A program made the position numbers and the translations under genes. Below are positions 27,784 through 45,900 of a stretch of 55,809 nucleotides of DNA, one piece after another. The notes under the pieces are model-generated. The model had not been told where the DNA came from. It searched no databases and saw only the letters and a list, made by a program, of their open reading frames with translations. The stretch is from Opitutaceae bacterium (GTDB lineage: Bacteria > Verrucomicrobiota > Verrucomicrobiia > Opitutales > Opitutaceae): the NCBI GenBank assembly GCA_947474995.1, contig CANJNJ010000009.1:1-55809 (forward strand). The letters run 5' to 3'. Numbering within the stretch: position 1 is the first letter of the stretch; every line of letters begins with the position of its first letter.

Positions 27784-27797
27784 GTCCGATCCAAACG

Positions 27798-27826: not shown

Positions 27827-27937
27827 TCTTCGGCGGCGGCGGAAGCCTCAGGCGAAGTAAGGCTGCGTTTCGCCGCTTTCCAACGTTTGCCGCCCCTCAC
27901 GGCTGGCCTTTCCCCGTGGGAATGCTTTACTCCCGCG

Positions 27938-28630
27938 ATGATTTTCGGTCGGTTGCTCCTCCCTGCCCTGCTCATGCTGGGCGCGCTGCCGCGGGCCGTC
28001 GTGGCGGCCACGCCAACCGCCGCCCCGCCGCCCGCGACCGAATTGAAACACTGGGTCGTCGAGCAAATGCCCGGCGGCCGGACGACGGAGCGCGACGATG
28101 TCCTGGAAATCGAAGACGCCGCCGGGTGCACGGCCTGGTGGCGGGAGAAGCTGACCGGGCCCGTTGAAATCACCTACGACGTGACCGTCGTGTTTGCCGG
28201 CGGCCCGCTGGACCGCGTCTCCGATCTCAATTGTTTTTGGATGGCAGCCGATCCGGGCGCAACTACCGCCCCTTTCGTGACGCGGCGCCGCAGTGGAAAA
28301 TTCCCCGACTACGATTCGCTCTTCACCTACTACGTCGGTTGCGGCGGGAACGAAAACACCACGACCCGCTTTCGACGCTACGACGGCACGGCGGCGCGGC
28401 CGCTCCTGCCCGAGCACGATCTCCGCGAGAAGAAATTTCTCCTCGAGCCCGGCCGCACGTACCACATCCGGCTCGTGGCCCGCGATGGTCTCGCGGAATT
28501 CTATCGGGACGGAGAAAAATTTTTCTCCTTTCGCGATCCGGCGCCGTTGGCCAGCGGATGGTTCGCGATCCGCACGGTCAAGAGCCACCTCATCGTGCGC
28601 CACGTCACCATCCGGCGCGGCGCGCCTTGA
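27938..28630 (+). CDS. Exported DUF6250 (concanavalin-like) protein
   Basis: Predicted secreted protein of 230 residues. Signal peptide (IFGRLLLPALLMLGALPRAVVAA) followed by a single domain matching DUF6250. Seen: WVVEQMPGG near residue 37, DDVLEIEDAAGCTAWW near 50, DRVSDLNCFWMAADP near 86, SGKFPDYDSLFTYYVGCGGNENTTTRFRRYDG across 110-142, and YRDGEKFFSFRDPAP near 190. The fold is probably a beta-jellyroll. Relatives are often found with pectin or other polysaccharide-degrading enzymes (from memory of the family). The ATG at 27938 fits the signal peptide, and it precedes a symporter gene. Confidence 0.8.
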   Translation: MIFGRLLLPALLMLGALPRAVVAATPTAAPPPATELKHWVVEQMPGGRTTERDDVLEIEDAAGCTAWWREKLTGPVEITYDVTVVFAGGPLDRVSDLNCFWMAADPGATTAPFVTRRRSGKFPDYDSLFTYYVGCGGNENTTTRFRRYDGTAARPLLPEHDLREKKFLLEPGRTYHIRLVARDGLAEFYRDGEKFFSFRDPAPLASGWFAIRTVKSHLIVRHVTIRRGAP

Positions 28631-28700
28631 GGCCGCGACGCCATGCGCCGAGAACCTGGGATGAACTTTGGCTTTCGCAATCACGGGTCTTGCTGGGGAC

Positions 28701-28752
28701 GCGACGCCCTCGTCGCGTTGCCTGCGAAGAAATGCCGCGACGAGGGCGTCGC
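28701..28752. repeat. Perfect 17-base palindrome
   Basis: GCGACGCCCTCGTCGCG (28701-28717) and its complement (28736-28752) sit between the DUF6250 and symporter genes, 54 bases before the symporter start. Confidence 0.8.
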
Positions 28753-28806
28753 GGCTCCAAGGATCGTTGGCTGAAAATGCATGACAGCGGCTGACCGTTT
28801 CGTCCC

Positions 28807-30363
28807 GTGACCGAGCCGCTTTCACTGCGCACGCTGGCCTGGCCCGACTATCTGGCGCTCACGCTTTATTTCGCGGCTAATCTCGGCATCGGCTGGTGGT
28901 TCGCGCGCCACCGCCGTTCCGGCAACGACTTCTTTCTCGGCGGCCGCAAGGTCGCGTGGTGGGCCGCGGGCATCAGCTTTTTTGCCACCAGCACTAGCAG
29001 TATCAGCTTCATGGCGCTGCCGGCGAAAACATTTCAATCCGACTGGCTCGCTTTCGGTTCCGGCCCGGCGCAGTCCTTCGCCGGCGTCGTGGTGGGTTTC
29101 GTCTTCGTGGGCCTTTTGCGCCGGCTGAACATGACGACGATCTTCGACTACCTTGAGCGTCGGTTCGATCGGCGGGTGCGGCTGCTCGGCGCCGGGCTGG
29201 CCGTGCTGCTCAAGGTTTGCGGGCGGATGAGCGTCGTCATGCTGCTGCCCGCGCTGGCGCTCGCGACGGTGACCGGGCTGAACGTTTACCTCAGCATCCT
29301 GCTGATGGGCGTCGTCACGACGATCTATGCGATGGAGGGCGGCTTCGAGGCCGTGGTGTGGACCGATGTGATGCAGGTCGGCGTGATGTTCGGCGGCGTC
29401 GCGGCCGCGCTTTGGTTCATCGCCCGCGGCGTCGACGGCGGCCTCGCCGGCATCATTCAAACCGGCGCGACGACGGGAAAGTTTCAGATGGTCGCGTGGG
29501 AGTGGGATGCCACGCAGCCGACGGTGTGGGTGTTCATCGGCATGTTCCTGGGTTCGATTTTCACGCAGCTCGCGGATCAGCCGTTGATGCAACGGGCGCT
29601 CGCGACGTCCGATGCCGGCGCGGCCCGGCGCACCGTGGTGCTGGGTACCTTGATCGGTCTGCCCAGCACCGTGGTGTTCTTCTTCGTCGGCACGGCGCTG
29701 CACGTTTTCTACCGCGCCCACCCCGAGCGCCTATCGAGTGCGCTGCCCAACGACGCGATCTTTCCCTACTTCATCGTCAACGAAATGCCACGCGGGCTGG
29801 TTGGCTTGATCATCGCCGGACTCTTCGCGGCGGCAATGGGAGCGCTGTCGAGCGCCCTCAACGCCACCGCCGCCATCATGGTGAGCGACTTCTATGGCAC
29901 GCTGCGTCCGGCGACCACCGAGACGGAGCGCGGGCAGCTGGCGCGGCGGGCGACGCTCATCGCGGGCTTGGTCGCCACGGCCATGGCGGCGATCATCGCC
30001 TCGCTCCACGTGGAGTCGCTCTGGGATCAATTCCTGAAACTCGTCGCCCTCATCGGCGGCGGCTTCCCGGGAGTGTTTGCGCTCGGTCTCCTCACCCGCC
30101 GGGCGAACGCCCCCGGCGTCATGGTGGGCGCGGTCGTCAGTATCGCCGTCACCTGGTGGGTGCAGAATTTCACCGCCACGAATGTCTTCCTCCACGGGTT
30201 TGTCGCGGTCGGGACGTGCGTGATCGTCGGCTACGCTGCCAGCTTCTGCTTCCGCGCTCGCCGTCCGGCGGAATCCAGCGATGTGCTCACGCTCTGGGAC
30301 CTCGGTCCGTCCCGCCGCGGCGGCAAAGATCCTCGGAGCACTGGAGAAACCCGGGCGATGTAG
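28807..30363 (+). CDS. Sodium:solute symporter (SSS family)
   Basis: Inner-membrane sodium-coupled transporter of 518 residues with about 13 predicted helices. Seen: DYLALTLYFAANLGIGWW near residue 14-31, DFFLGGRKVAWWAAGISFFATSTSSISFMALP (residues ~40-72, the family's first-core-helix region with the serine-rich sodium site), and GALSSALNATAAIMVSDFY near 345-364 (second sodium-site helix). The substrate is probably a sugar or sugar acid, given the neighbouring genes. The start is GTG at 28807. The TAG stop at 30361-30363 lies inside a family C repeat. Confidence 0.9.
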   Translation: MTEPLSLRTLAWPDYLALTLYFAANLGIGWWFARHRRSGNDFFLGGRKVAWWAAGISFFATSTSSISFMALPAKTFQSDWLAFGSGPAQSFAGVVVGFVFVGLLRRLNMTTIFDYLERRFDRRVRLLGAGLAVLLKVCGRMSVVMLLPALALATVTGLNVYLSILLMGVVTTIYAMEGGFEAVVWTDVMQVGVMFGGVAAALWFIARGVDGGLAGIIQTGATTGKFQMVAWEWDATQPTVWVFIGMFLGSIFTQLADQPLMQRALATSDAGAARRTVVLGTLIGLPSTVVFFFVGTALHVFYRAHPERLSSALPNDAIFPYFIVNEMPRGLVGLIIAGLFAAAMGALSSALNATAAIMVSDFYGTLRPATTETERGQLARRATLIAGLVATAMAAIIASLHVESLWDQFLKLVALIGGGFPGVFALGLLTRRANAPGVMVGAVVSIAVTWWVQNFTATNVFLHGFVAVGTCVIVGYAASFCFRARRPAESSDVLTLWDLGPSRRGGKDPRSTGETRAM

Positions 30364-30594: not shown

Positions 30595-31830
30595 TCAGCG
30601 CGCGGTGCCAGTGGTCTCGACCGCCGGCACGGTCCAGCAGCCGCCAAATTCCCGGTAGTCTTTCAGTGATTGCATCGGGTTGGACCGGGCCCATTTCGCA
30701 CCGACCTCGCTGAACAGCGCGCCCTGTTTCGCGGCCGCGGCGATCGTTTCATCGAGGTCGCGGCCAAGAGAGGCGGTCCCCTGACCGGCGTCACCCTTGG
30801 CGCACGCCAGATCGGCGATGGGAAAGAATTCGTGCAGGGCGTTCACGACGAGCGTATGGCTGCGGGCGAGCGATGGCTCGACGATGAAGTCATTTTCTCC
30901 GCGCAATCGCGTGACGACGGCCTCGAGCACGCGCAGGCGGGTTTCCAGCTGGTCCGGCACGGGAAAGGTTTCGGTCGCTCCGCTGGTGCGCCTGACCGTG
31001 TAGTCTTTTTCGTAGGTCCAGCGGATTTCACCGTGATCGCCGAGGAGGTGAATGTCGGGCGGTCGATCCTCGACCCCCGAGTGAGATCCGTAGAAAAGAA
31101 TTTCCACCCCACTCGCGGTCCGGGCGCGCAGGCTGACGGTGTCGAAACTCTCCATGGGTCGGAACCGGCTGAGCTCGGCTTCGAGCGTGACGACGGGCGA
31201 CGCGGTGGAGGGCTTTGCGCCGGTCCAAAAAAGCGCCAGCATCAAAAAATGAGCGAAGGCGTTATTGACCGGGGAATCGAGCACCCACGCCTCGCCCACG
31301 CGCAGCCGGCCCGCCCAGTTGTTGCGCGCATAATAGGCGGGGCCGCGCGGCCATTGGGCCCGCACGGTGATGCGCCGCAGGGTTCCAAGGTCACCGCGCA
31401 GGACGCGTGATTTGATGTCATGCGCGGCGGGCACGCAGAGTTCCTGAAAACCCACGGCGACCAGTCGCTCGGCCTTGCGCTGCGCCGCCTCGATCGCATC
31501 GATCTCCTGCAGCGTCGCCGCGATCGGCTTTTCCACCAGCACGTGGGCGCCCGCGTTCAGGGCGGCGATGGCCATCGGCGCGTGCCATTGAATTCCGGTA
31601 GGAAGCAGCACGAGGTCGATGTGCCCGGAGAGCGCGAGCATCATTTCCTCGAAGCGGCCAAAGATTTTCACACCGTGGCGCCGCAGCCGGGCACAAAGGG
31701 TCGCTGCTTCCGGTTCGTTGATGACCACGGCGCCGACCAGCTGCAGCTGGCCCAGCAAGGATTGCTCCATCGCCATCAGGAGATGCCAGCGGCCATAGCC
31801 CGTCACGCCAACCAGTGCGGCCCGAATCAT
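30595..31830 (-). CDS. Gfo/Idh/MocA-family oxidoreductase
   Basis: NAD(P)-dependent sugar-type dehydrogenase of 411 residues. Seen: AALVGVTGYGRWHLLM (residues ~4-19, with G-x-x-G-x-G-like cofactor site), VLLPTGIQWHAPMAIAALNAGAHVLVEKPIAAT across 75-107 with the conserved EKP lysine, and a C-terminal sheet region including HLLGDHGEIRW near 258. The catalytic histidine of typical members is less obvious (candidate SPVNNAFAHFLM near 186-197). It is divergent from the LacI-type regulator, which may control it. Probably acts on a sugar or inositol derivative. Confidence 0.86.
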   Translation of the reverse strand: MIRAALVGVTGYGRWHLLMAMEQSLLGQLQLVGAVVINEPEAATLCARLRRHGVKIFGRFEEMMLALSGHIDLVLLPTGIQWHAPMAIAALNAGAHVLVEKPIAATLQEIDAIEAAQRKAERLVAVGFQELCVPAAHDIKSRVLRGDLGTLRRITVRAQWPRGPAYYARNNWAGRLRVGEAWVLDSPVNNAFAHFLMLALFWTGAKPSTASPVVTLEAELSRFRPMESFDTVSLRARTASGVEILFYGSHSGVEDRPPDIHLLGDHGEIRWTYEKDYTVRRTSGATETFPVPDQLETRLRVLEAVVTRLRGENDFIVEPSLARSHTLVVNALHEFFPIADLACAKGDAGQGTASLGRDLDETIAAAAKQGALFSEVGAKWARSNPMQSLKDYREFGGCWTVPAVETTGTAR

Positions 31831-31851: not shown

Positions 31852-31921
31852 GCGCGCGCCCGCCCTCGGTCGCTGAACCGGAGGCGGCCGAGGTCGGGCG
31901 CGCTCCCAAAAGAATCCGGGT
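31852..31921. repeat. Dispersed repeat family D, copy 1
   Basis: CGCGCGCCCGCCCTCGGTCG and CTGAACCGGAGGCG with an inverted half (CCGAGGTCGGGCGCGC), then AATCCGGGTA. A related unit with the same order, ending in ATCCGGGTA, lies at 39038-39116. Confidence 0.65.
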
Positions 31922-32031
31922 ACATATAGTGGGTGTCTTTGTGCGGCGCCCGGCGGAAAACCGGCGACCAGACAGGAAATGGGCTTGTCGGTTCAAAGTC
32001 ATCCCAACTGAATTGGATGCGTTGCAAGACC

Positions 32032-33054
32032 ATGCCCAAAGCCACCCTTCGCGCGCTCGCTGAAAGCTGTGGCGTGTCCGCCGCGACGGTGTCGCGGGCG
32101 CTGTCGGGACACCCCAACGTGCGGGCCGACGTTCGCGCGCGGGTTGAGGCGGCGGCGCGTGAGCAGGGCTATCAGCGCAATCACCTTGTTGGCGCCATCA
32201 TGGCCCAGGTGCGCGCGGCGCGAACCCAGCAGTTTCTCGGCAACCTGGCGTTTGTTCACGTGCCCTCGCCGGAGCAGGCGCGGCTGCGGCCGATGCAAGT
32301 GCGCATGGTTCGGGCAGCGGAGGAGCGCGCCCGGGAACTCGGCTTTCACTTGGACGTCCTGCACCTTGATGCCGCCCGCAACGCGCCGGCGACACTTGGG
32401 CGCATCCTGCATGCGCGGGGCGTCCAGGGCGTCGTCTTTCTTTACTCCCGTCCGACTGACGCGGTGAATGGGTTTCCCTGGCAGCTCTTTGCCTCGGTCG
32501 AAATCGACTACGGTTCGCCCGAGCTGAAGCAGCACACGGTGTCGATCGATCACCACCTGACGCTGACTGGGGCGCTCATGCGGTTGCGTATCCTCGGGTA
32601 CCACCGCTGCGGACTTTTCATCGAGCGGCACAAGGATGAGCGGCTGATTTTCAAATGGTCGGCGGCCTTTCGATCGTTTCAGGAGAATCAAGGAGGCATC
32701 GGCAGGGTGCCGGTGCTAGTCGCCGAGACGATGACCGCGGAAAAATTTCTGGCGTGGCATGGGGAACATCGCCCTGGATTGGTGATCGGCCACGTGGACA
32801 AGGCTGTCGGTTGGCTGCGGCGCGCGGGTGTACCGGTTCCGGCGGGCACGGGATTCTTCAACTTGAACTGGAACGAACGGACGATCCGTTGCGCCGGGCT
32901 CGATCTGCGGCCGGAATTGCAGGGCGTCGCCGCCGTTGAATCACTGGTTGGACAGATCCACCGGAATGAGCGCGGTCTGCCAGCGGACCCGCACACCGTG
33001 ATGGTGGGCGGCCGCTGGGTTGATGGACCCACCCTGCGGAAATCCGTAGCCTGA
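32032..33054 (+). CDS. LacI-family transcriptional regulator
   Basis: Repressor-type regulator of 340 residues. The N-terminal helix-turn-helix (TLRALAESCGVSAATVSRALSGHP, residues ~4-27) and hinge (RVEAAAREQGYQRN) precede a periplasmic-binding-protein-like effector domain. Landmarks: GVQGVVFLYSRP near 134, SIDHHLTLTGALMRLRILGYHRCG near 173-196, and PADPHTVMVGGRWVDGPT at the end. The ATG at 32032 (MPKATLR) is chosen because the HTH starts there; upstream codons read through repeat DNA. It lies divergent from the Gfo/Idh/MocA gene, a classic position for local control of sugar genes. Confidence 0.9.
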   Translation: MPKATLRALAESCGVSAATVSRALSGHPNVRADVRARVEAAAREQGYQRNHLVGAIMAQVRAARTQQFLGNLAFVHVPSPEQARLRPMQVRMVRAAEERARELGFHLDVLHLDAARNAPATLGRILHARGVQGVVFLYSRPTDAVNGFPWQLFASVEIDYGSPELKQHTVSIDHHLTLTGALMRLRILGYHRCGLFIERHKDERLIFKWSAAFRSFQENQGGIGRVPVLVAETMTAEKFLAWHGEHRPGLVIGHVDKAVGWLRRAGVPVPAGTGFFNLNWNERTIRCAGLDLRPELQGVAAVESLVGQIHRNERGLPADPHTVMVGGRWVDGPTLRKSVA

Positions 33055-33073
33055 TTCATAGACTCTGGCTCGA

Positions 33074-33160
33074 GGTGGGCCGGGCACTCCGTGCGCGGCT
33101 TCCGGGTGGCTGGGAAAGGCGCTCCGACAATTCTGCCGCGCACGGAGAGCCCGGCCCACC
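33074..33160. repeat. Palindromic repeat family B, copy 3
   Basis: Arms 33074-33098 and 33136-33160 match at 24 of 25 positions and contain the family core GGTGGGCCGGGCACTCCGTG. It lies between convergent genes, twenty bases after the regulator stop. Confidence 0.85.
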
Positions 33161-33179
33161 TTCAAGGCGAAGCCGGCAG

Positions 33180-34187
33180 CTATTTTCCCTTGGCCTGCGA
33201 CCACGCCAAAACCTTATCCGCCGCGGCGAGGGCCTTCGCATCTCCGCGTTCGAGTCCGTAATGCGTCAGCGCAAAAACGACCTCGTTGTAATTCACGCCC
33301 TTCGATTGGCCGAGATAAGTTTCGGTTCCGACACCGGTGCGCGTGTTGGCCGAGACGTCGACTTCCCCGCTCTCCCGAATCATGGTGAGCTGCCATGCGA
33401 CCACCGCGGGCAGGGCGGCGGCAAATTCGGGGAGCGCGAGATGCGCGGCCAGCTGCTCACCGAAAAGAATCGAAACCGCGTTGTAGCTCGAGTCGCGTCC
33501 GCCCTTTTCGATGAAGACCCCTCCTTCGTCCCGCAGGGTCAGCGCGAGCGCCACCAGTTGGTGCGCCGTCGCCACCAGCTGGTCGTCATGGAGCACGAGC
33601 CCGCAAAGGCCGAAAGCCTTGGCCGCGATGAAGAGCCGGTTCACCGCCTTGCTGCTGTTTTCAATAATGGTGTCGTAGCCGGCTTGGATGAACGCACACC
33701 CGCGTCGCACCTTCGGTTCGAGGGCAGCGATGCGCGCATGAAAATGAGCTTCGTGGGGCGACTCCCGGATGACGAGAACGGCCCGGCCGAGTTCCTGCAT
33801 AAAAAAGAACGCCGCTTGGACGCGAGCGGTGTGTGGGTCGGCCGGACCGATGTCGCCCTTGCCCCGAGGGTTGGATTCGAACCCGCCGTCGGGCAGTTGG
33901 TGGGCAAATGCGGTGTCGATGGCCCTCCAGGCATCGTCGGCCGCGGCCAGATTCCCGGCGACGACGGCGGCCACCACGGCTCGGCAGCCGCCGCGCTGCA
34001 TCCCCGCTTCCATCCAGCGTTTTTCGCTCCGATTGCCGCCGGTGAACCCGTTGGCATCCGGTCGGTCACCGGCAGAAAGCGCGGCGAGGCGGCCCGCCGG
34101 GAAATTTTTCAGCAGCTCGTATTCCGAAGCGGGGGCTTTAAACGGCACCGCTGACAGCAGCAAAAGAGGGAGAAGAAAACGCTTCAT
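33180..34187 (-). CDS. Exported helical protein, paralogue of 36068-37096
   Basis: Predicted secreted protein of 335 residues; no named family recognised. Signal peptide (KRFLLPLLLLSAVPF), then repeated amphipathic helices suggestive of an alpha/alpha-toroid. Segments shared with the paralogue include QAAFFFMQELGRAVLVIRES, NRLFIAAKAFGLCGLVLHDD and GGRDSSYNAVSILFG. The conserved ESPHEAHFHAR and GGRDSSYN stretches are candidate active-site or ligand-binding patches. The start overlaps the stop of the upstream sulfatase by ATGA, so both are in one operon. Best guess is a polysaccharide lyase-like or glycan-binding protein. Confidence 0.72.
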   Translation of the reverse strand: MKRFLLPLLLLSAVPFKAPASEYELLKNFPAGRLAALSAGDRPDANGFTGGNRSEKRWMEAGMQRGGCRAVVAAVVAGNLAAADDAWRAIDTAFAHQLPDGGFESNPRGKGDIGPADPHTARVQAAFFFMQELGRAVLVIRESPHEAHFHARIAALEPKVRRGCAFIQAGYDTIIENSSKAVNRLFIAAKAFGLCGLVLHDDQLVATAHQLVALALTLRDEGGVFIEKGGRDSSYNAVSILFGEQLAAHLALPEFAAALPAVVAWQLTMIRESGEVDVSANTRTGVGTETYLGQSKGVNYNEVVFALTHYGLERGDAKALAAADKVLAWSQAKGK

Positions 34188-35851
34188 GGGGTAAAGGAGG
34201 CCATCCATTCAATTTCGGGCCACGCGGGCGACATCGGTTGCGGCGTTCCGGGCGTTGAGCGGCCCTGCTCGACATAACGGCGCAGTAGCCGGCCGAGGCG
34301 CTGGACGATTTCGGGATGCGCGGCGGCCACGTTGTTCTTTTCCCCGGGATCGGAGGAGAGATCGTAAAGCTGGAACGGTGGAAGTACGCTCAGGTCCGCG
34401 ATCGGCACGCTGAGCCACTGACTGGGCTTGGTCGTTGGCGAACTCCATCCGCCAGAGCCGGGCCAGAGCAAAAGTTTCCACTGGCCCTGGCGAATCGTGA
34501 ACCGGCCATCTCCGGAATGATGGACCAGCGCTTCGCGCAAAGGCTTGGCCGGTTTCGCGCCCCGCAGTAGCGGAAGCAGGCTGACGCTGTCCTCTGCCGC
34601 ACCTTCCGGCAGCTTCGCGCCGAGCAGCTCGGCACACGCGGCAAAAAAATCCAGCTGGCCGACCAGCTCGGCGGTACGACCGCCGGCCGGCGTGTGGCCG
34701 GGCCATCGCGCAAGGTAGGGAATCCGGTGTCCGCCCTCAAAAAGGTCGGACTTGTAGCCGCGGTAGCCCGCACTCGGCTCGTGGTGCAGGGCCTGCAACG
34801 CCGCGAGCCCGGCGGCGGGCGCAAAGCCATTGTCGGCCGTGAATATGACGATCGTGTTTTGCGCGAGGCCGCTCTTTTCCAGCGCCGCGAGAACCTTGCC
34901 CACGTCGGCATCGACCTGGGTGACGAAATCCCCGTAGAGCGTCGTGTGGGTTTTGCCTTCGAATTCCGGCGTCGGCAAAAGCGGCGTGTGCGGGGCGGCG
35001 AGGGCGAGATAAAGAAAGAAGGGCTTTCGGTCGCGCTCCGCCGCGCGTTCGGCGAGATAGGCGGTGGCCTTGGCGATCAGCCGCGGCTCGACCTCTTCCA
35101 TCTTGAAATCCGAGCTGATAGGTCCGGCGCGCCACAGCTTCGGCGGCGGGCTGTCGGTCACCCGGCCGGTCGGCACCATCGTCGCCTTCGTTTGATCGAG
35201 CCAGACATAGGGCGGCATGTCGAGTGAGGCCGTGAGCCCAAAGAAACGATCGAAGCCGTGCGCGAGTGGGCCGCCACCAAACGGCCGCGCAAAAGCGACG
35301 TCCTCGGGGTTGGGTCCGTTGCGTTCCCAATCGACGCCGAGGTGCCACTTGCCGAACATCGCCGTGGCATAGCCCTGGGCGCGCAGAAATTCCGGCAGCG
35401 TGAGCCGACCGGGTTCAATGATCCCTCGGTCGTAGCCATTGGCGACACCCTGCTTCAACGCGCCTCGCCACGCATAGCGACCCGTCAGAAACGCATAGCG
35501 GCTCGGAGTGCAGAGGGCCGAGGCCGCGTGGGCGTCGGTGAACATCAGGCCTTGGGAGGCCAGTCGATCGAGATTCGGTGTCCGCCACTTGCTGCCCGGA
35601 CTGAAGCACGAGACGTCGCCGATGCCGAGATCGTCGGCCAGGATGTAAACGATGTTGGGTCGTTCGGCGGTCGCGGCCGACGCGACGCCACAACCAAACC
35701 ACAAGGCGAGTGCCCACACAAAGGCACAAAAATTACCGAGGCTGCGGTGAAGATTTTTCCCGGGCCTACAAGTCCATGCAGACTCCCGTCGTGGCGAATG
35801 ATCTTTGTATTGCTGTCCCGCAGAGTCCTCGCAAGCCGCGATGAATTTCAT
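34184..35851 (-). CDS. Arylsulfatase-type sulfatase
   Basis: Exported family S1 sulfatase hydrolysing sulfate esters, probably on a polysaccharide. Seen: RPNIVYILADDLGIGDV (metal-binding DD pair, residues ~64-80), LCTPSRYAFLTGRYAW (CxPSR motif whose Cys becomes formylglycine, ~113), MFGKWHLGV near 171, and FTADNGFAP near 346. About 555 residues from the ATG at 35851. The start is uncertain: the signal-peptide-like core (FVWALALWFGCGVASAA) begins near residue 45, and a GTG at 35719 would give a shorter, more typical leader. Needs a maturase (FGE or anaerobic sulfatase-maturing enzyme), not seen here. Overlaps the next gene by 4 bases. Confidence 0.9.
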   Translation of the reverse strand: MKFIAACEDSAGQQYKDHSPRRESAWTCRPGKNLHRSLGNFCAFVWALALWFGCGVASAATAERPNIVYILADDLGIGDVSCFSPGSKWRTPNLDRLASQGLMFTDAHAASALCTPSRYAFLTGRYAWRGALKQGVANGYDRGIIEPGRLTLPEFLRAQGYATAMFGKWHLGVDWERNGPNPEDVAFARPFGGGPLAHGFDRFFGLTASLDMPPYVWLDQTKATMVPTGRVTDSPPPKLWRAGPISSDFKMEEVEPRLIAKATAYLAERAAERDRKPFFLYLALAAPHTPLLPTPEFEGKTHTTLYGDFVTQVDADVGKVLAALEKSGLAQNTIVIFTADNGFAPAAGLAALQALHHEPSAGYRGYKSDLFEGGHRIPYLARWPGHTPAGGRTAELVGQLDFFAACAELLGAKLPEGAAEDSVSLLPLLRGAKPAKPLREALVHHSGDGRFTIRQGQWKLLLWPGSGGWSSPTTKPSQWLSVPIADLSVLPPFQLYDLSSDPGEKNNVAAAHPEIVQRLGRLLRRYVEQGRSTPGTPQPMSPAWPEIEWMASFTP

Positions 35852-36067
35852 GGCCGTCACGGTCGCCAGTGGGGACGAGAACAGGCCCCGGGTTCTTACA
35901 GGAGGACAAACCGAGGCCAGGCGGAGGGAGGGATCTCTGAATGTCCTCGGATGGGCCTCCTGTGCAAAAGGATTGGGGTTTAGTTGCGGCTCCGCCGCTC
36001 TACGTTTTTTTGTGGCCATAAAATTTCCGGAGTGCAGCGGGACGACATTACGAGCGACTGACCGGCT

Positions 36068-37096
36068 TCATTGGGCCGCCTTCTTATCCATGGCCGCTCG
36101 GTAGGCGAAAACTTTCTCGGCGGCGGCGAGGCATGCGTCGTCGTGGTGAATGAGTCCATAGAGGGTCAGCGCCTGCACGACTTCGCCGTAGTTCACCGTC
36201 TTGGGATCGCCGAAATAGGACGGTTCCAAGCCGACGCCGGTGCGGGTATTGCCCGTGACGTCGACTTCCCCGCGGGGTCCGATGCGAGTAAGTTCCCAAG
36301 CGACGGCGGCGGGTAGCGCGGTTTCAAGCTCTGGGAGAGAAAGATGCAGGGCCAGGACCTGACCGAACAGGATCGAGACCACGTTGTAGCTGGAATCCCG
36401 GCCGCCGTGCTCGATGAACACGCCGTCCTGGTCGCGCAGGGTCAGTGCGTGGGTGACCAACCGGCGCGACGTGGCGACGAGCGCTTCGTCGTGCAGGACG
36501 AGGCCGCACAGGCCAAATGCTTTGGCGGCGATGAATATCCGGTTCACCGCCTTGCTGCTGCCGGCGATGATCGTGTCGTGGCCCGACGTGATGAAGGCCA
36601 TGGCGCGGCGCATTTTCGGCTCGAGCTCGGCGATGCGGGCGTGGAAATGCGCTTCGTGCGGCGATTCCCGGATGACCAGGATTGCGCGGCCCAACTCCTG
36701 CATGAAGAAGAAAGCCGTCTGGATGGCGGCCGGGAAAGGCTTGGCGCTCGTGCCGTTGGGCCGGTCGCTGGCTTCGAATCCGCCGTCCGCGCGCTGGCGG
36801 GCGAAGGTCGCGTCGATCCCCCGCCAGGCGTTGTCAGCGTAGGCGAAATCGTCGGTCACGACTCCGACGATGACAGCGCGGGAGCTGCCGCGCTGCGTGC
36901 CGGCTTCGAGCCAGCGTCCGGCGCGGTGGTTGGTGCCGATGAAACCCTGGGCGTCCGGGACGTCGCCCATCAAGGCCCGCAGCCGCTCCGCCGGGATCGC
37001 ACGGAGGATCTCGTATTCCGTGCGAGGGCGCGCCGGTGCGGCGGCGGCAGTGGCACAGGAAAGGAGCAGGAGCACTGCGAGCGATCGGAGTTTCAT
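36068..37096 (-). CDS. Exported helical protein, paralogue of 33180-34187
   Basis: Predicted secreted protein of 342 residues, clearly homologous along its full length to the protein encoded at 33180-34187. Signal peptide (KLRSLAVLLLLSCATAAAA) then helical repeats. Shared blocks: DGGFEASDRP near 105, QTAFFFMQELGRAILVIRES near 123, NRIFIAAKAFGLCGLVLHDE near 182 and EHGGRDSSYNVVSILFGQ near 222. The ATG at 37096 fits the leader. The duplication brackets the sulfatase gene, pointing to a shared substrate. No family name can be given; a toroidal lyase-like fold is the leading guess. Confidence 0.72.
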   Translation of the reverse strand: MKLRSLAVLLLLSCATAAAAPARPRTEYEILRAIPAERLRALMGDVPDAQGFIGTNHRAGRWLEAGTQRGSSRAVIVGVVTDDFAYADNAWRGIDATFARQRADGGFEASDRPNGTSAKPFPAAIQTAFFFMQELGRAILVIRESPHEAHFHARIAELEPKMRRAMAFITSGHDTIIAGSSKAVNRIFIAAKAFGLCGLVLHDEALVATSRRLVTHALTLRDQDGVFIEHGGRDSSYNVVSILFGQVLALHLSLPELETALPAAVAWELTRIGPRGEVDVTGNTRTGVGLEPSYFGDPKTVNYGEVVQALTLYGLIHHDDACLAAAEKVFAYRAAMDKKAAQ

Positions 37097-37144
37097 CGTG
37101 AATAGAATCACTGGCAGGATGTGGCTTGGCCGGATTGGGGCGTG

Positions 37145-37212
37145 GTTCGTAGTTCCGCCTTCAGGCGGAAGGATTGAGACGCTGGATTCGGCCTGAAGGC
37201 GGAACTACGAAC
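37145..37212. repeat. Palindromic repeat family A, copy 4
   Basis: Perfect 22-base arms (37145-37166 and 37191-37212) with the TTCCGCCTTCAGGCGGAA mini-hairpin. It lies between the helical protein and the lyase-like gene. Confidence 0.87.
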
Positions 37213-37272
37213 TCGGATGAAATGTTGATTCGAGAGCAAAGTACGTTTTGCGCCGGCGACAGCAGGCAGGCG

Positions 37273-39000
37273 TCAGCCGATTTGGATTGTGGCATGGAAC
37301 GGCGTGAAGCCAGTGAGGTAGACGCTTTGGCCGTCCCACTTGGGCAGCGCTCCGCGCAGTTGGGTCCAGGTGTGTTCTGTGTGCCCGGGACCGAATTCGA
37401 TTACATTCCCTTCGTGGAGATACTGGCCGCGTCCGTTGCGCAGGAGGAAAGCGTCCTTCATTCCCGCGACCGGTTCGACACCGCGCAGCTCACCGCCATG
37501 ACGAAACGCGAGTTCGACTGCGACCGGCACCTGATCCGTTCCCGTGATGCTGAGCACGATTTCAAACTTACCCGCGTTCTCCGTGATGGTCACCACGCTT
37601 TCGAGGGTTTGGATGTTGCTGCGCGCGCGCAGTGCCCTCGGGCCGGCAGCCAGAGTGCCGTTCGGCGCAAGTTTCACGTGACCTCCGTCGGCATCGAGCT
37701 GCTCCTTGGTCAGCGGTTGAAAGTACGGGCCGTCGAGCGCCTGTCGCATGACATAGCGGCCATCGGGGAGCTCGAGCGTCTCGCCGACGAACTGGCCCTT
37801 GCCGAAAAACGCGCTGGCGACACGCACGGCTTCGAGCGCGGCCGTGCCTTTGCGCAGGGAAAAAACCGTGGAGTTCTCGGCGAGAATGGTCGCGCTGATC
37901 TGCTGGCGGCGAATCCGTGCGAGCGCCGAGTAACGGAAAAATTTCACGTAGTCTGTCGGCAGCGGCGCGCTTGCGGGCATCGGGCGTTGGAGCGTCGGGT
38001 CTTCGAGAAACGCCGGCAAATCTTGCGCCAATGGCGCCGTCGCGGTGCGTTCGATTTGGCGGGCCATGGCGGCGAACCGGCCGTTGCTGTCGCGCAGGGC
38101 GAGCCAGCGATAGGAATAATAATATTTTCCCATGCTCCCGCGCTGGTATTTGTCCTGGCGCTTCGAGGCTTCGGTCACGACCTCGCCGTCCGGATGAACG
38201 TAGAAAAGCGTCATCTCGAGATTTCGGCGTACGGCTTCGATCAGTTCCGGCCGGTTGAGCAATCGTGCGACCGTGAGAAGAGCTTGATCGACGACGGGTG
38301 AGTAGACCGACGTGCTTTTTTCGGTAAACTGGCCGTCGGGATCGATGTCGACGGTCTCGGCCATCCACTGGTCGATCCGGGCGAGATACTTGGGATGAGG
38401 AAAAAGTGTCTGAACCCGCGCCAGGCCCGCGCAGACGACCCAGCGGTGATTGGGTGTGTGCACGCCGCCATTCGTGAAAGCTTCGCCCGCTTTTAAGGCG
38501 AAGGCCTTGAGATCTGCCAGCAACGCGTCGCACGCGGACCATTTTCCGTTCTGAATAATAACGATCGCGGGTCCGACCGACTCGAGAGTGAAGGCGGTGT
38601 CCGGGGTGGAATGAAAATTGGTCGCCGGCAAATCCGTCGTGCCGTCTTCATGTTGCGCGGTGAGCAGGCAACGCGAAGCGAGCCGCAGCGGCTCCAGTAG
38701 GCTGTCGGCCCGATAAAAGGCGGACTCCGGCGCGTGGGCGGCGCTCACGAGCGTGACGATGAACTGGCCGATCTCCCTCGCGGCGAAGATGCCGAAGTCG
38801 TCGGGAATCCCGCCTAGCCAGCGATGTCCGGCTCGCTGCTCTTGCCGCGGCAGGTAACGCCGCACGACGTCGTCGTTGGCGCGAATCAGGGTGAGTACCA
38901 GCGGATCACGGTCCGCGGCGGTGGCACCGTAAAGTCGCGGGGCGATCGTTACGGCGCCGAAAGCGCCGGCCGTGGAAAGGATGAAGTCCCGGCGATTCAT
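37273..39000 (-). CDS. Tat-exported polysaccharide-lyase-like protein
   Basis: Protein of 575 residues. A twin-arginine leader (NRRDFILSTAGAFG) directs folded export. The first ~340 residues are helical repeats (FHSTPDTAFTLESVGPAIVI, NHRWVVCAGLARVQTLFP, DGQFTEKSTSVYSPVVDQALL), and the last ~230 are strand-rich, ending VYLTGFTPFHATIQIG. This toroid-plus-beta-sandwich layout is that of heparinase/alginate-lyase-type enzymes. Candidate active residues are the NHRW and VYSPVVDQ tyrosine/histidine patches. No signature is decisive, so the substrate is not assigned. The nearby sulfatase and TonB receptor support a polysaccharide role. Confidence 0.66.
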   Translation of the reverse strand: MNRRDFILSTAGAFGAVTIAPRLYGATAADRDPLVLTLIRANDDVVRRYLPRQEQRAGHRWLGGIPDDFGIFAAREIGQFIVTLVSAAHAPESAFYRADSLLEPLRLASRCLLTAQHEDGTTDLPATNFHSTPDTAFTLESVGPAIVIIQNGKWSACDALLADLKAFALKAGEAFTNGGVHTPNHRWVVCAGLARVQTLFPHPKYLARIDQWMAETVDIDPDGQFTEKSTSVYSPVVDQALLTVARLLNRPELIEAVRRNLEMTLFYVHPDGEVVTEASKRQDKYQRGSMGKYYYSYRWLALRDSNGRFAAMARQIERTATAPLAQDLPAFLEDPTLQRPMPASAPLPTDYVKFFRYSALARIRRQQISATILAENSTVFSLRKGTAALEAVRVASAFFGKGQFVGETLELPDGRYVMRQALDGPYFQPLTKEQLDADGGHVKLAPNGTLAAGPRALRARSNIQTLESVVTITENAGKFEIVLSITGTDQVPVAVELAFRHGGELRGVEPVAGMKDAFLLRNGRGQYLHEGNVIEFGPGHTEHTWTQLRGALPKWDGQSVYLTGFTPFHATIQIG

Positions 39001-39037
39001 GCCCGATGGATTCGCATTTGTTTTGGTTTGGTTTGCC

Positions 39038-39116
39038 GGGAGCGCGACCGCCCCCGGTCGCTGAGCCGGAAGCGACCCGGAGCGTTCGCGCTCCGACTAT
39101 CCATGGGATCCGGGTA
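39038..39116. repeat. Dispersed repeat family D, copy 2
   Basis: GGGAGCGCGACCG...CGGTCGCTGAGCCGGAAGCG...GTTCGCGCTCC with ATCCGGGTA at the end. It parallels 31852-31921. Confidence 0.65.
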
Positions 39117-39137
39117 AACGACGAAGCCTTGGCAACG

Positions 39138-39156
39138 GACGGCTCGAAGAGCCGTC
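39138..39156. repeat. Repeat family G hairpin, copy 1
   Basis: GACGGCTCGAAGAGCCGTC is a perfect 8-base stem with a 3-base loop. It recurs as GACGGCTCTCCGAGCCGTC at about 47514. Confidence 0.65.
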
Positions 39157-39196
39157 GCTACCTCACAGAAGTCCATTTCCCGAAACGGAGCGAAGA

Positions 39197-42100
39197 TCAA
39201 AGGTCAAACGACGTGCTCAGGATAAACTGGCGCGGATCGACGATGCGGTAGGCGTAGGGCGCGCCGTCGGGATTGACGCCGATGGCCTGGAGCCGGCCGC
39301 CTTCGAAGGCGTTCTTGAGGTTGAGCTGAGCCTTGCCGCGAAATTTGCTTCCAAACAGCTTGAACCGGTAGCCAGCGTTTAGATCGACGTAGAACCGGGC
39401 CTGGTCGTAGACCGGCTTGTCGCTGTCGAGGAGGAGCACAGCGCCCCGGTAGGGGCCGCTGGTCTCGGGCGCAGCACCGAGGAAACCGATCGAGGCCCGA
39501 CTCTCCCAGCGCACCGCGCCGCCGACGGTGAAGTTCTTAAACTTACCCTCGGTGAAGTCGTAGTTGGTGAGCCCGGCGAACCGAAACTCACGCATCTGGG
39601 TCCTGGGTTTCCCGGCGTTGGTGGACGCGGCCCAGTACGCCGCCCATTGGTCCGCCGTCCACCGCGTCTGGGGTGTACGGTTGCTGTCGTTGGCTTGGGG
39701 TGTTTCCCACCACGTCGGGCCCTTGCCATCGCTAGGGACGATGTCGCTGCGCAAGGTGCTCCAAATCGGTACCCGGGTTTGCCACCAGTCATAGATTTCC
39801 GGAGAAACCCGATCGTCCTGGGCCTGAGTCTGTGATCCGGTGAACTTCATCCGCCAGTTGCGGGTGGGATTGTAAGTGGCCTCGAGTTCGAAGCCCTTCG
39901 AGCTGACATCGGTGGTCCCGACGGTCTGGGGCTGGCTGGGACCGGAGTAAACCAATCGCGTGTACAGGTCCTGAGAAATTCCCATCAACTTGGCGACGGC
40001 CGGGTCCAACTCGGCTTGGGTGGGCTTCGGGTTGCCGGCGGCAGCGAACCGGCCGAGGGCGATTTGCGTGCAGAAATAGCGGAACGAGGCCGGTTGGATG
40101 TTGTTACTGCCGTCCGGCCGGCCCTCCATATCGAGATAGCGGTTGCCGAGTGTGCCGACTTCGCTGCCACGGGAATAGAGCTCCTTGGTTTGGAATCGAT
40201 TGATCCGGATGTTGAATTTGCCGTCGGGGGTCGCGACGCTGAAGCCCCACTCGGTCGAGTAGCCGTGGGGATTGGGCACGTTGCCCGTGCTGTTCACGGC
40301 TTGACGCACCGTCTGGGGGGCGAAGCTATCGGACTTGTTGAAGTGGACGTTCAACCAACGATTCACCTTCACGACGGCACCGTAGGTCTTGGTGTCGCCG
40401 TCTTGTTGCACCCACCCGGGCAGATTGATAATGGTACCAGACGGCGAGACAAAGTTTTGGGCCGGGCCAAAAATGCCGGTGTTGGATAAGTCGGCCAAGC
40501 CTGTCTTCGGATCGACGAACGCCCCCGCGCCGGTGCGCTGGCGATAGCGGTCGCGCCGCAAACCGGCGGTCAGCACGAGCCGATCGTTGAAAAGGTAACT
40601 CTGGGCCGTGCCATTAAACGTGCGAATTTCGGTGCGCTCCCGGGCTCCGGAGCCGCTGTTATACAATTCGCTAACGGTGACAGGCTCGTTGGTCCAGACG
40701 CCCGTCCGGTTGTTGAACCACGTCAACGGATAAGTGCCGTTGATATTATCGGTGGCTGACGTGCCATAATCCATGTTTTGGCCCTGCGGGTCGCCAATAT
40801 ACCAGCGCTCGCCGATTTGCTGATTGTTTACGCCGCCGACCAGATTCAAGTTTCCCGGAGTATTCCACGGATGGTTGGCATCGACGCGCGGCGTAACGGT
40901 GTAAGGAATGCGATCTTCTAGTTTTTGTTCGGCGTGAACGGCGAGACGCTGCTGGCCGATCCATTTCAGCCAACGTGGTTGATCGCTCGGCGTCAGTTGA
41001 TAGGCGAGGTCAGCGGACGTGATGGCGGTGTTCTTCGGCTCGTATCGGATGCTTGGCGAAGTGGCCTGGACGTAGGGCCGCTTGAAATACGGGTTGGGTG
41101 TGCCGTCGAGCCGCTTTTCGTTCACATCGACATAGATCACGGTCTCCAAGTTATCGATGAAACTATAGGTTCGGCGGCTATAATTTTGCTGAAAGGCCCC
41201 GGCGCGAGCCGCCAGGAGTTGATGCGGCGTGTTGAACACGATCTGTTCGATCTCGACGCTGTAGGTCTTGGCTTCGTCGGTGCCGTGGTTGGGCGCCACG
41301 ATATTATACTTGGTCCAGTCGTAGATCGATTTGTCCGCGGTGCCGTTCACAATGTACAATGGCAGGCTCGTGGGCCCGAGCAGGCCGAAGCGGCGCATGA
41401 CGTCGGTGCCGCTCGTCAAATAACGCAGAGGGCTGTTGCCGCCGGTAAACGGACTCGTCGGCAGGGCCGTGCCCGTGACGGCCGTGCGCGTGTTGGTGAT
41501 CGTGAAGGCTTGGATGGAGTTGTTGTCGATGATGACCGTCGGATGGAGGTAGAATCCGTTGTAACCGCCAATTAACCCGGGCGGCAGGACGTAGGGAGAG
41601 ATGGACACACCCGAGATACCGGGAAGGGGAACCGACGGATTGTCCGCGGGAAACGGCCCGGCCTTGGTGCCGTTGGCGAAAGTAACCATCTGGGTGGTTG
41701 GATCCCACGTTGGGCTCCCGCCGGCTTTCCACTCGGTCGTGGTGTCGCGCGCGGTGATCGAATTGGGCCGGCGGTAGTTATCCCGGTAATGCTCGGCCGA
41801 CGCGCGGATGGTCGTGTTCTTGAACGGCCGCGCCAGCATCGTCGCAAATTCGCGGTGAATTTTCTCAGAGGAGGGTTTGCGAATGAAACCCTTCGATTCA
41901 TTGACCGCGGCAACACGCAGGGCGAGTTTTTCGCGGAGCAGCGGGACGTTGAGATTCAGGCTCTCGCGATGGCCGCCGTAACTGTCGAAGCGCAGGTCGG
42001 CGCTATACGATTGGCGGGTGGGATTGGCCTGGGTCGGCACGATGCTGACGGTGCCGGCGGCCTGGCCGAGGCCGAAAAGATTGGAGTTGGGGCCGCGGGA

Positions 42101-42679
42101 AATCTCGATCGCGGCGATGTTATACGGATCGAACGGGATGTCGGGGTTGCTCGTGAAATTGCCCCATGCGGTGTTAGCGCCACCGACGCTTTGGCCGGCC
42201 TGGGTGACACCGCGCACGCGGTTGGACCGTTGCGGATCGGATTGGATCTGATCATTCACGCCTCCGGATCGGTTGCGGTTGAAGGTGGTGAAGTTGTCGA
42301 CGCCTTCCGTGCTGGCTTCGTAGCGGAAGACGTCGTTGATATCGAGCGAGGCCATGTCCTCCATCTGCTGCTTCGTGATGACCGTGATCGAAGAGCCGAT
42401 GTCCTCCAGCTTGGTATTGAGGCGGGTGCCCGAGAGCGTGTTAGAGGCTTGGTAACCCTTGTTGTCGGAGACGACTTCGAAAGGGGAAAGGGTCACGACC
42501 TCATCCCTGGCGGCTGCCGGCGTGGCGGTGGAACGGGCTGGTGCGGCCTGGCCCACCATGCGTGAGGTCAGACCAACGAGCAGCAGCGAAGCAACGGCGA
42601 GTGAACAAATCGGCGAACGAAAACTGGCGGTAACAAGCGATCGTCGACGGGCTGAACGGGAGGACATGGATAGATTCAT
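39197..42679 (-). CDS. TonB-dependent outer-membrane receptor
   Basis: Large outer-membrane transporter of 1160 residues. A leader (SFRSPICSLAVASLLLVGLTS) precedes a TonB-box-like stretch EVVTLSPFEVVSD near residue 60, the pattern common in Opitutaceae receptors. The plug region follows: GTRLNTKLEDIGSSITVITKQQMEDM (~85-110) and EISRGPNSNLFGLGQAAGTVSIVPTQ (~192-217). The long beta-barrel ends in aromatic QFILSTSFDL, the usual barrel terminus. Substrate is presumably an oligosaccharide from the adjacent lyase/sulfatase genes. A start at the ATG at 42679 or 42667 is possible. Confidence 0.93.
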   Translation of the reverse strand: MNLSMSSRSARRRSLVTASFRSPICSLAVASLLLVGLTSRMVGQAAPARSTATPAAARDEVVTLSPFEVVSDNKGYQASNTLSGTRLNTKLEDIGSSITVITKQQMEDMASLDINDVFRYEASTEGVDNFTTFNRNRSGGVNDQIQSDPQRSNRVRGVTQAGQSVGGANTAWGNFTSNPDIPFDPYNIAAIEISRGPNSNLFGLGQAAGTVSIVPTQANPTRQSYSADLRFDSYGGHRESLNLNVPLLREKLALRVAAVNESKGFIRKPSSEKIHREFATMLARPFKNTTIRASAEHYRDNYRRPNSITARDTTTEWKAGGSPTWDPTTQMVTFANGTKAGPFPADNPSVPLPGISGVSISPYVLPPGLIGGYNGFYLHPTVIIDNNSIQAFTITNTRTAVTGTALPTSPFTGGNSPLRYLTSGTDVMRRFGLLGPTSLPLYIVNGTADKSIYDWTKYNIVAPNHGTDEAKTYSVEIEQIVFNTPHQLLAARAGAFQQNYSRRTYSFIDNLETVIYVDVNEKRLDGTPNPYFKRPYVQATSPSIRYEPKNTAITSADLAYQLTPSDQPRWLKWIGQQRLAVHAEQKLEDRIPYTVTPRVDANHPWNTPGNLNLVGGVNNQQIGERWYIGDPQGQNMDYGTSATDNINGTYPLTWFNNRTGVWTNEPVTVSELYNSGSGARERTEIRTFNGTAQSYLFNDRLVLTAGLRRDRYRQRTGAGAFVDPKTGLADLSNTGIFGPAQNFVSPSGTIINLPGWVQQDGDTKTYGAVVKVNRWLNVHFNKSDSFAPQTVRQAVNSTGNVPNPHGYSTEWGFSVATPDGKFNIRINRFQTKELYSRGSEVGTLGNRYLDMEGRPDGSNNIQPASFRYFCTQIALGRFAAAGNPKPTQAELDPAVAKLMGISQDLYTRLVYSGPSQPQTVGTTDVSSKGFELEATYNPTRNWRMKFTGSQTQAQDDRVSPEIYDWWQTRVPIWSTLRSDIVPSDGKGPTWWETPQANDSNRTPQTRWTADQWAAYWAASTNAGKPRTQMREFRFAGLTNYDFTEGKFKNFTVGGAVRWESRASIGFLGAAPETSGPYRGAVLLLDSDKPVYDQARFYVDLNAGYRFKLFGSKFRGKAQLNLKNAFEGGRLQAIGVNPDGAPYAYRIVDPRQFILSTSFDL

Positions 42680-42991: not shown

Positions 42992-45900
42992 GTGAAAGCC
43001 CTAGCTTTAACCCTCGTCGCAGCAACGCTCGCACTGACTCAGAACGTGCGTGGCCAGGCCGTTGTAACAGAGACGTTTAAGAACGCTACAACGGCGGATG
43101 CCAACTGGGTTTTCGCCGGTTCGGGGTACACGCCGACCCTCACTTCGGGAGTCAGTGACACGGCGGGGAATGGGTGGCTGCGTCTCACGACGACGGCTAC
43201 CAATCAGGCGACAAGCGCCTACTACAACCAGGCGTTTACGGCGGCGAACGCGACCGTCTACGCCAAGTTTGATTACGAATCCTACGGCGGCACTGGCGCT
43301 GACGGCATAACTTTTTTCCTCTTCGACGGATCGAAGGCTTTCAACGTTGGTGCCTACGGCGGTTCAATTGGCTACGCCCAGAAGACCGTCGCCAGTGGTG
43401 GCGGTGCGAACATTAACGGGATGAACGGCGGCTATCTCGGGGTGGCTCTCGATGAATATGGCAATTTTTCTTCGGCATCGGAAGGCCGCGTCGGCGGATT
43501 GAATGGCACCACCGGTTTGGTTCCCGACTCGATTGGCGTTCGTGGCCCCGGTCAGGATCTCAGCGGTTATGCTTTCCTCGGCGGCAGCGGAACACTCGCG
43601 CAGTCCATCGATTCGGCCGCGCGGCCTACCCAGACAAACACGATGCAGGTTCTCCTCAGCGCGACGAACCAGCTCAGTGTTACGCTGCAACAGGGCGGGA
43701 CCAGTCCGCAGACGATCATCCAGATGGACCTTTCGGGCTACGCTCGTCCCGACACGCTCAAGTTTGGTTTTTCCGCGGGCACGGGTGGGTCGACTGACTA
43801 TCATGACATTCGGAACCTGAACGTCACGACCCTCTCGGCCAATCTTTGGTCGGGCACCGGCGCCAATGGACTCTGGGCGTCGCAATCGAACTGGAATCCC
43901 ACCGTCGTGCCGACGGCCGGCGCTGATGTGCTCTTCGACAACACCTACGTCTCCTCGAATCAGACGATCGACACGGGGGCAGATCGCAACGTGCGCTCCC
44001 TCTCCTTCGACGCGGCGTCCAACTTCACGCTCAACAACAATACCTTCACCTTCGACAATCAAGGCGTCCCCGGCTTCTCCGGCATCTCGGTGTCGCAGAC
44101 CCACGGCACGGCGACGAACACGATCAATTCCGGCCTGAGTCTGGCCAACGCGATCTTCATCCGCAACAACTCGACCGGGACGCTCAACGTGAACGGAGCC
44201 ATTGCCGCGGGCGCCAACAGCATCACCCTCGATGGCGCCGGCACCAATACGTTCATCACCGGCGTAATTTCCGGCACGGGCGCCTCGATCATCAAGAACG
44301 ACGCCGGCACGGCCACGTTGTCCGGAGCGAATACCTATATGGGTGGAACCTCGGTCAACAATGGTACGTTGAACGCCAACCATGCGACGGCCCTCGGCAC
44401 TGGCGCGGTCACGCTCGCCGGTGGTTCGCTGGGTTCGACCAACGGCACGACGATCGGCAACACCCTTTCCCTGACCGCGAGCTCCGGCCTCGCGAACCTC
44501 ACGTCGACGGGCGCTCTGACCCAGACCGGCGGCAGCTACAATCTCGTCATGAACGGCGTCACCCAGACGGGTAACGTCGCTATCTCCAATACCAACACCG
44601 CGCAGACGCTGACGGTCCAAGTCGACTCCACAGACTCGACCATCAATGGAATAATCTCCAACGGCGGCACGGGTGCGGGCAACCTGACCAAGACCGGCGC
44701 GGCGACCCTCACCCTTGGCGGCGCCAACACGTACACGGGAACGACGACCATCACGGGCGGCTCGCTGAAACTCGGGGCCAGTGACCGGCTTGCCGATGCG
44801 AGTTCGCTCAACATCGGAGCTGCCGGCACCTTCGACCTCAACGGGTACTCCGAAAAAATTGGCGCGCTGACGGCGGCGGGCGGCGCGACGCTCGACTTCG
44901 GTGCCACCGCCGGCGCGAACACGTTCATCTTCGGCACCTATACCGCACCGGCCAGCGGCGTCCTCGTGGTCAATAACTACCAGAGCGGCGTGGACAAGCT
45001 CGCGACCACCATCGCCACGCAGACGGTCAACACCATCTACCTCTCCGGTCTCGGTGTGGCGACGGAATCGGCCAGCCTCACCGCGATGGGCGGTACTTAC
45101 GGCAACGCTTATCTCTTAACTCCGGTTGCGGTGGCGACGGTCGAATGGGACGGCAGTTCCAGCGCCAACTGGAACACCAACGCCAACTGGACCCCGGCCG
45201 CGAAGCCGACGACGTCGCAAGTAGCCTTGTTCGATGTCCTCGGCGTGGCTCAGCCCAATGTCACGGTCAACGGCGCGAACACGGTCGCGGGCATCAAGTT
45301 CGGCACCGGCGCCTCGGTTGGCTACAACCTCGGTGGCACCCTCGGTCTGACCCTCTCCGGCACGCTCCCCTATATTCAGCAGCAGAGCGCGAACAACCAG
45401 ACGATCAGCACTTCGGGCGGGCTCACCCTCGGTGCCAACACCGTGGTCGATATTACGGGCGTGGGCAACCTGACCATCTCCTCGCCGATTACCTCGGTCG
45501 GCAAGAATCTGATCCGGGACGGTTCCGGGAGCGGAAAACTCATCCTCTCCGGTAACAACAGCGCCGCGACCGGCAGCGTGTACGTCAACAACGGCATCGT
45601 GCAGGCCGCGCATACCAATGCGCTCGGCACTGGCGCAACGGTCGTCTCCGCGGGCGCGACCCTCGAACTCTCCGGTGGCATCGCGCCGACCAACGCCATC
45701 TCCATCGCGGGCACGGGCGTCGGCAGCAACGGCGCGATTCGCAACGTCAGCGGTGCCAATACGCTTTCGGGCACGATTACGGAAACCGTCTCGGCCAAGA
45801 TTACCGCGGACACGGGTACGACGCTGAATCTCACCGGCAACCTGACGGGTTCCAACATGACCACGTGGCTGGGCGGCGCGGGTGACATCAACATCAGCCA

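Follow-up and report, generated by a model that had tools for sequence, protein, structure and literature searches.

The stretch from 33180 to 42679 of the window (the whole 55,809-nucleotide piece of an Opitutaceae bacterium genome analysed here) has the features of a TonB-linked carbohydrate-use operon, in which two paralogous proteins, A and B, and a larger relative, LYA, are candidate lyases acting on a sulfated acid-sugar glycan. I give this reading roughly an even chance. What is new is a pair of unnamed, mutually related predicted toroid families lying in a conserved catabolic module, whereas the type of locus itself (receptor, sulfatase, degradative enzymes and regulator) is familiar.

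Organization of the locus

According to the list of open reading frames, the order of transcription on the minus strand is TonB receptor, LYA, B, sulfatase and A (Table 1), and the five genes may well share one transcript. The open reading frame of A runs from 34208 to 33180 and that of B from 37111 to 36068, their ATG codons giving proteins of 335 and 342 residues; both are full length with N termini that read as signal-like. A and B are 65% identical over 315 residues (E 4e-140), far beyond chance, which bears out a preliminary description of this DNA in which two full-length paralogues flank the sulfatase, the first overlapping it by ATGA (34187-34184, read from the sequence as common to the start of A and the stop of the sulfatase). 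The same description had a Tat-exported toroid-like protein and a TonB receptor follow the pair; both are present, but they precede it in transcription order.

Table 1. Features of the locus and its surroundings, in window coordinates.
Feature	Coordinates	Strand	Remarks
Sodium:solute symporter (SSF)	28807..30363	+	homologues in L018 (64%), L054 (40%)
GFO/IDH/MocA oxidoreductase	30595..31830	-	homologues in L046 (64%), L018 (53%), L058 (35%)
LacI-type regulator	31933..33054	+	domain match; homologues elsewhere
A, 335 aa, alpha/alpha-barrel protein by homology to B	33180..34187	-	Sec-type signal by reading
Sulfatase, PF00884, CTPSR	34184..36019	-	Cys170 of the ORF, codon 35512-35510
B, 342 aa, paralogue of A, modelled alpha/alpha barrel	36068..37096	-	
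REP-like inverted repeat between LYA and B	37145..37212	n/a	palindrome AGTTCCGCCTTCAGGCGGAA at 37151-37206
LYA, 575 aa, Tat-type start MNRRDF (by reading)	37273..39000	-	helical part homologous to A/B
TonB-dependent receptor, 1160 aa	39197..42679	-	TonB Plug domain, 9.2e-9

The locus is like the polysaccharide utilisation loci of Bacteroidota in grouping a TonB receptor and a sulfatase with candidate lyases and a regulator. It is unlike them in that the SusC/SusD pair is incomplete: the receptor is present, but no SusD-type match was found among the ten window proteins scanned. Divergent from the receptor gene lies one for a protein of 1493 residues (42992-47473) with PATR repeats and a PEP-CTERM end, the latter slightly under the Pfam cut-off and over the NCBIfam one, and a DUF6250 protein is encoded at 27428-28630, upstream of the SSF gene.

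All five gaps of the locus that were searched carry long inverted repeats. The palindrome between LYA and B, AGTTCCGCCTTCAGGCGGAA, is found again at 16325-16381, 18052-18108 and 24861-24880; it has seven matches in the window at up to three mismatches, against 0.02 expected. At up to two mismatches the whole genome has 321 matches and the reversed control none. Other inverted repeats, with arms of 20-27 nt and different sequences, lie at 33073-33161, 39039-39094, 31854-31903 and 28694-28759, and one 20-base word occurs exactly at 2083, 3773 and 33074. A simple palindrome scan of eight stretches, too simple to decide on regulator sites, returned no shared operator-like word.

A conserved LYA-(A/B)-sulfatase module

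Comparison of 19 neighbourhoods, taken from all 18 other genomes of the family with LYA (three partial LYA matches, two in G444 and one in G454, were left out), demonstrates that LYA, A/B and the sulfatase form a conserved module, spread over seven genera. Close LYA proteins (53-64% identity) occupy 15 of these loci (L017, L045-L057, L062) and distant ones (31-38%) the other four (L058-L061). A sulfatase 61-73% identical to that of the window lies near the close LYA in 13 of the 15 (the exceptions are L052 and L057), and an A/B gene in nine (L017, L045, L046, L047, L053, L054, L055, L056 and L062). Missing neighbours in L048 and L062 are uncertain, since the former is a 5.5-kb contig and the LYA gene of the latter starts 124 bases in. 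The LYA and A/B genes overlap or lie no more than 3 nt apart in L017, L047, L053 and L054.

Across whole genomes, nine of the 15 with a close LYA contain a single A/B match, G454 contains two pieces of one split gene (two overlapping frames at L047 10943-11988), and five (G491, G469, G501, G481 and G477) contain none. Thus, among the genomes with a close LYA, two intact A/B genes were found in the window's genome alone, and the bracketing of the sulfatase by paralogues, although real in the window, is peculiar to it. In G470, A/B and LYA lie on separate contigs.

Several loci depart from the module. The stretches L003, L004 and L005 hold A/B genes without LYA or sulfatase; LYA stands without the sulfatase in the two exceptions above and in the examined stretches of all four distant loci; and a TonB receptor adjoins LYA in only 8 of the 15 close loci. 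The receptor resembles that of the window over most of its length (41-51%) in L045, L053, L054 and L055, and mainly over the N-terminal third in L017, L047, L049 and L051. L046 and L056 have a protein of 639-681 residues in its place. Large proteins adjoining LYA are encoded at L046 10687-12606, L056 10905-12950 and L045 11089-12780, those of L046 and L045 having no Pfam match.

The remaining neighbours bear on the possible substrate. The module has a LacI homologue next to it in L045 and L046, a MocA homologue in L046 and an SSF homologue in L054. LacI homologues occur also in L018 and L058, and all three types are found in L018, where there are two A/B genes, both distant, but no LYA. Heparinase II/III-type genes occur in L018, L054 and L055, and distant A/B relatives carry CBM96 or DUF4114 domains. 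Near the A/B gene of L004 are genes for a galactonate dehydratase (314.9 bits against a cut-off of 311) and for a protein resembling galactonate transporters, which scores below its cut-off. The heparinase-type genes, the dehydratase and the CBM96 domain point to acid sugars, and the presence of a sulfatase and a receptor to a sulfated oligosaccharide. In at least 5 of the 15 loci (L017, L045, L049, L050 and L051, part of the neighbours having been scanned) the gene after the sulfatase encodes a tannase/feruloyl esterase, which keeps a phenolic ester in play. In L021 a DUF4114-A/B protein and a distant sulfatase (27% identical to that of the window) are encoded about 3.4 kb apart, at 2841-4346 and 7741-10374, a looser pairing.

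Among genomes drawn as samples, A/B was found with B as query in the window's own genome alone out of 177 from the order; a profile search of 288 genomes of the phylum gave eight, the window's among them, six of the eight having distant relatives only. These counts understate how common A/B is within the window's taxonomic family, since 10 of the 15 further genomes that carry a close LYA later proved to have A/B. For LYA, a sample of 100 genomes of that family contained 19 with the gene, counting the window's own, and a profile search of 387 genomes of the phylum gave nine, two of them weak. Further A/B genes come from three metagenome-assembled genomes named as Blastocatellia, Verrucomicrobia and Acidobacteria; none was found in plasmids. 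One Streptomyces and one Subdoligranulum record contain relatives of LYA that align over about 90% of its length at 26-31% identity; another Subdoligranulum record has a partial relative. Both A/B and LYA occur in the window's taxonomic family; beyond it, A/B extends to Acidobacteriota and LYA to one Streptomyces and one Oscillospiraceae record. A single weak LYA match in viral contigs proved on reading to be an unrelated protein and was taken as chance.

Two related families and a generic fold

Neither A nor B matches anything in Pfam or NCBIfam at E values up to 1, and LYA reaches no cut-off in either collection, its only match being Tat-signal-like (0.012, below its cut-off). Searched against the sequences of solved structures, A, B and LYA gave noise-level matches only and no credible relative; the solved lyase nearest to LYA, a hyaluronate lyase (E 0.02), is level with squalene cyclases (0.01). 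The toroid families PL8, PL12, PL33, PL38 and others were compared through these PDB sequence searches alone. Nor did the literature yield a paper tied to these proteins, the families being without a name to search by. By the measure of Pfam, NCBIfam and solved-structure sequences both families are therefore unnamed, although they may have an existing CAZy number.

They are nonetheless related to each other. Aligned by hhalign, A/B matches the helical part of LYA at 97.8% (E 1.2e-12, 218 columns), and at the level of sequence profiles A and B are remote homologues of that part. Profile-profile comparison of A/B and LYA with PL5-like, GH88, GlcNAc-epimerase and heparinase II/III sets gave no match, and neither did the sulfatase, TonB-receptor and SSF controls. 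This comparison sees near relatives only, because the known barrel families have no match among themselves. Singly, PL5 (PF05426) is absent from the matches of the 18 A/B rows and appears, at E 0.21, in a single row of the 13 for LYA, with hhalign probabilities against 20 PF05426 proteins of 5.9 (A/B) and 1.1 (LYA). Heparinase II/III (PF07940) has no profile match and hhalign values up to 0.2 (a set of three sequences), GH88/GH105 (PF07470) none and up to 2.8 (five sequences, four of them partial), and AGE (PF07221) none and up to 1.6 (eleven sequences, three of them short).

The structure of B, modelled from five sequences, is predicted as an alpha/alpha barrel (pLDDT 84, pTM 0.85). Foldseek returned a best E of 5e-4 (YihS) and a mixed list of epimerases, GH88, chondroitin AC lyase, PL17 lyase, the lyase BACCELL_00875 and terpene cyclases. 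With VIA the sugar epimerase 3vw5 scored highest (Z 19.9, rmsd 3.5, 275 aligned), ahead of GH105 (Z 18.4) and the alginate lyase AlgL (4ozv; Z 17.0, rmsd 4.1, 259 aligned). Comparison of a predicted structure with lyase families, as the preliminary description had proposed, thus placed lyases among the matches of B and epimerases above them. The modelled barrel is a generic fold, common to many families, and is clear as a predicted fold and ambiguous as to family. For LYA, modelled from an alignment of six sequences, the confidence is low (pLDDT 43), the C-terminal part coming out mostly beta.

A/B and LYA share an ordered motif, (N/H)R...E...Y...R. The Arg after N/H, the Glu, the Tyr and the second Arg are each invariant in the 18 A/B rows, and Asp234 (B numbering) is present in 17. 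N/H and Tyr are 52 residues apart in 17 of the 18 A/B rows and 75 in the remaining one, and N and Tyr 48-50 apart in all 13 LYA rows. In the model of B, by DSSP, N185-R186 fall in helix 184-200 and Y237 in helix 235-251, at helix starts, as would be expected for the active site of a barrel. The motif residues of LYA are N184-H185-R186, E227, Y233 and R281. Of two shared patches once thought functional, GGRDSSYN is near-invariant across the family (Tyr in 18 of 18 rows, Asp in 17). In contrast, ESPHEAHFHAR varies in near relatives (ESPYEAHFHDR in L046, QSPHEKHFHDR in L003) and is lost in distant ones.

For PL33, published work names N238, Y291 and H444 as key residues, gives the Tyr counterparts in PL12, PL15, PL17, PL21 and PL39, and allows a spacing of 53-55 to be read for N238/Y291 (PL33), H202/Y257 (PL21) and H311/Y365 (PL15) (PMC11848413). 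The spacing in A/B and LYA is close to this and would fit a lyase, as a resemblance and not a test. The two-domain toroid lyases (PL12, PL15, PL17, PL21, PL33 and PL39) are like LYA in having a helical and then a beta part, to judge from its low-confidence model, and resemble both A/B and LYA in sequence spacing, with Asn or His followed by Tyr about 50 residues on. They are unlike them in that neither A/B nor LYA has a credible sequence relation to the solved chains, and in that A and B have no beta domain, where H444 of PL33 sits. The PL5 alginate lyases share a single alpha/alpha barrel with B and differ in profile, by the hhalign values given above.

Origin of the pair and its sulfatase

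The tree speaks against a simple tandem duplication around the sulfatase. B groups with L003, L046 and L056 (support 99/99) and A with L004 (86/87), and a single clade of A and B has a p-AU of 0.02 for the whole protein. The clade fares worse over B residues 25-124 (p-AU 0.0006, with L056 omitted for this part) and is not rejected over residues 206-335 (p-AU 0.07), while over residues 125-205 A and B do group (84/83). A and B are thus probably not sisters, so that no simple local duplication accounts for them. The longest identical run of the pair, 22 nt over SSKAVNR, falls within the middle part and takes in Lys182 of B and its counterpart, also Lys, in A; His occupies this site in 11 of the 12 remaining near rows, the twelfth (L047) having its frame break there. 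Gene conversion confined to this middle stretch is only a suggestion made after the fact, because the parts of the protein were picked with the data already in view.

The sulfatase matches PF00884 at 2.7e-55 (188.2 bits, cut-off 25). C-x-P-x-R is the maturation motif of S1 formylglycine sulfatases, here present as CTPSR, and the window's genome encodes an FGE-type protein (PF03781, best 1.2e-84). PF00884 matches number 33 in this genome, including fragments and one match that scores under the cut-off. The true start of the protein is probably internal, since the initial 100 or so residues lie outside most homologue alignments. Among solved structures, 7oze and 6s20 are closest to it (E about 1e-77), the record of 6s20 bearing the name GalNAc-6-O-sulfatase. 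Published work identifies 7oze as BT1624 of subfamily S1_15, active on 6S-Gal/GalNAc (PMC10154620), and gives the specificity of BT3333 as GalNAc6S (PMC10154620, PMC6994673). The S1_15 sulfatases BT1624 and BT3333 are the known enzymes nearest to the window sulfatase, a likeness that does not fix subfamily or specificity.

What do these proteins do?

In the mechanism that I propose, the receptor would import an oligosaccharide, the sulfatase would strip sulfate esters in the periplasm, and LYA (a barrel with a beta domain) would, with A and B (each a barrel alone), cut the chain beside an acidic sugar, beta-elimination being the most likely chemistry. The conserved Tyr would serve as acid/base, and the (N/H)R pair and second Arg would hold the carboxylate. 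The neighbouring SSF, MocA and LacI proteins would probably see to uptake, oxidation and sensing of the product, with the cluster perhaps under common control. The preliminary description proposed a glycan locus with an unnamed enzyme family; synteny, the missing Pfam and NCBIfam matches, the barrel model of B, the A/B-LYA homology and the CBM96 and DUF4114 relatives speak for it, whereas "polysaccharide", "lyase" and "sulfated" keep the status of interpretations.

The chemistry might instead be hydrolytic, with A, B and LYA as glycoside hydrolases of an unnamed alpha/alpha-barrel family and Glu229 and Asp234 of B as acid/base in A/B. The conservation of these two residues suits such an enzyme, as do the many hydrolases among the structural neighbours of B (GH105, GH88, GH76 and GH48), but Asp234 has no aligned counterpart in LYA, whereas the motif residues (N/H, R, E, Y, R) occur in both groups, and the small GH88 set showed no profile link; I consider this possible but unlikely. 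The absence of a profile link to the lyase sets or of a credible match to a solved lyase and the higher structural rank of the epimerases also count against lyases, and the loci that depart from the module count against the proposed operon. A and B might also be enzymes of the AGE/YihS type, acting as epimerases or isomerases on sugars. Although YihS, cellobiose 2-epimerases or a related sugar epimerase head the Foldseek and VIA matches of B, the barrel they share is generic and PF07221 has no profile link to A/B. AGE enzymes are cytosolic and use His, whereas A and B have signal-like N termini and no His among their invariant or nearly invariant columns, so that this identity seems very improbable.

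The substrate could also be a small ester-bearing compound, such as a sulfated or phenolic glycoside, and no polysaccharide. The tannase/feruloyl-esterase genes of the related loci point this way, and the MocA and SSF genes would fit small sugars. Against this stand the receptors adjoining LYA, the CBM96 domain on an A/B relative, the heparinase-type genes nearby and the lack of a tannase among the ten window proteins scanned; I judge it a poor prospect, if a better one than the epimerases.

Returning to the candidate lyases, a broader proposal is that A/B (barrel alone) and LYA (barrel and beta part) are two architectures of one undescribed carbohydrate-lyase clan, paired in the window's family with a dedicated sulfatase; here two A/B proteins, probably not sisters and with a shared His-to-Lys change, would serve one sulfatase. 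I advance this tentatively, with less than even confidence. If the lyase reading is right, these proteins would constitute an uncharted enzyme family for sulfated acidic glycans. The conserved three-gene module, together with the relatives that have LYA and sulfatase and no A/B, would then make a ready test set, and the locus would provide an assay handle on one of the genome's many sulfatases.
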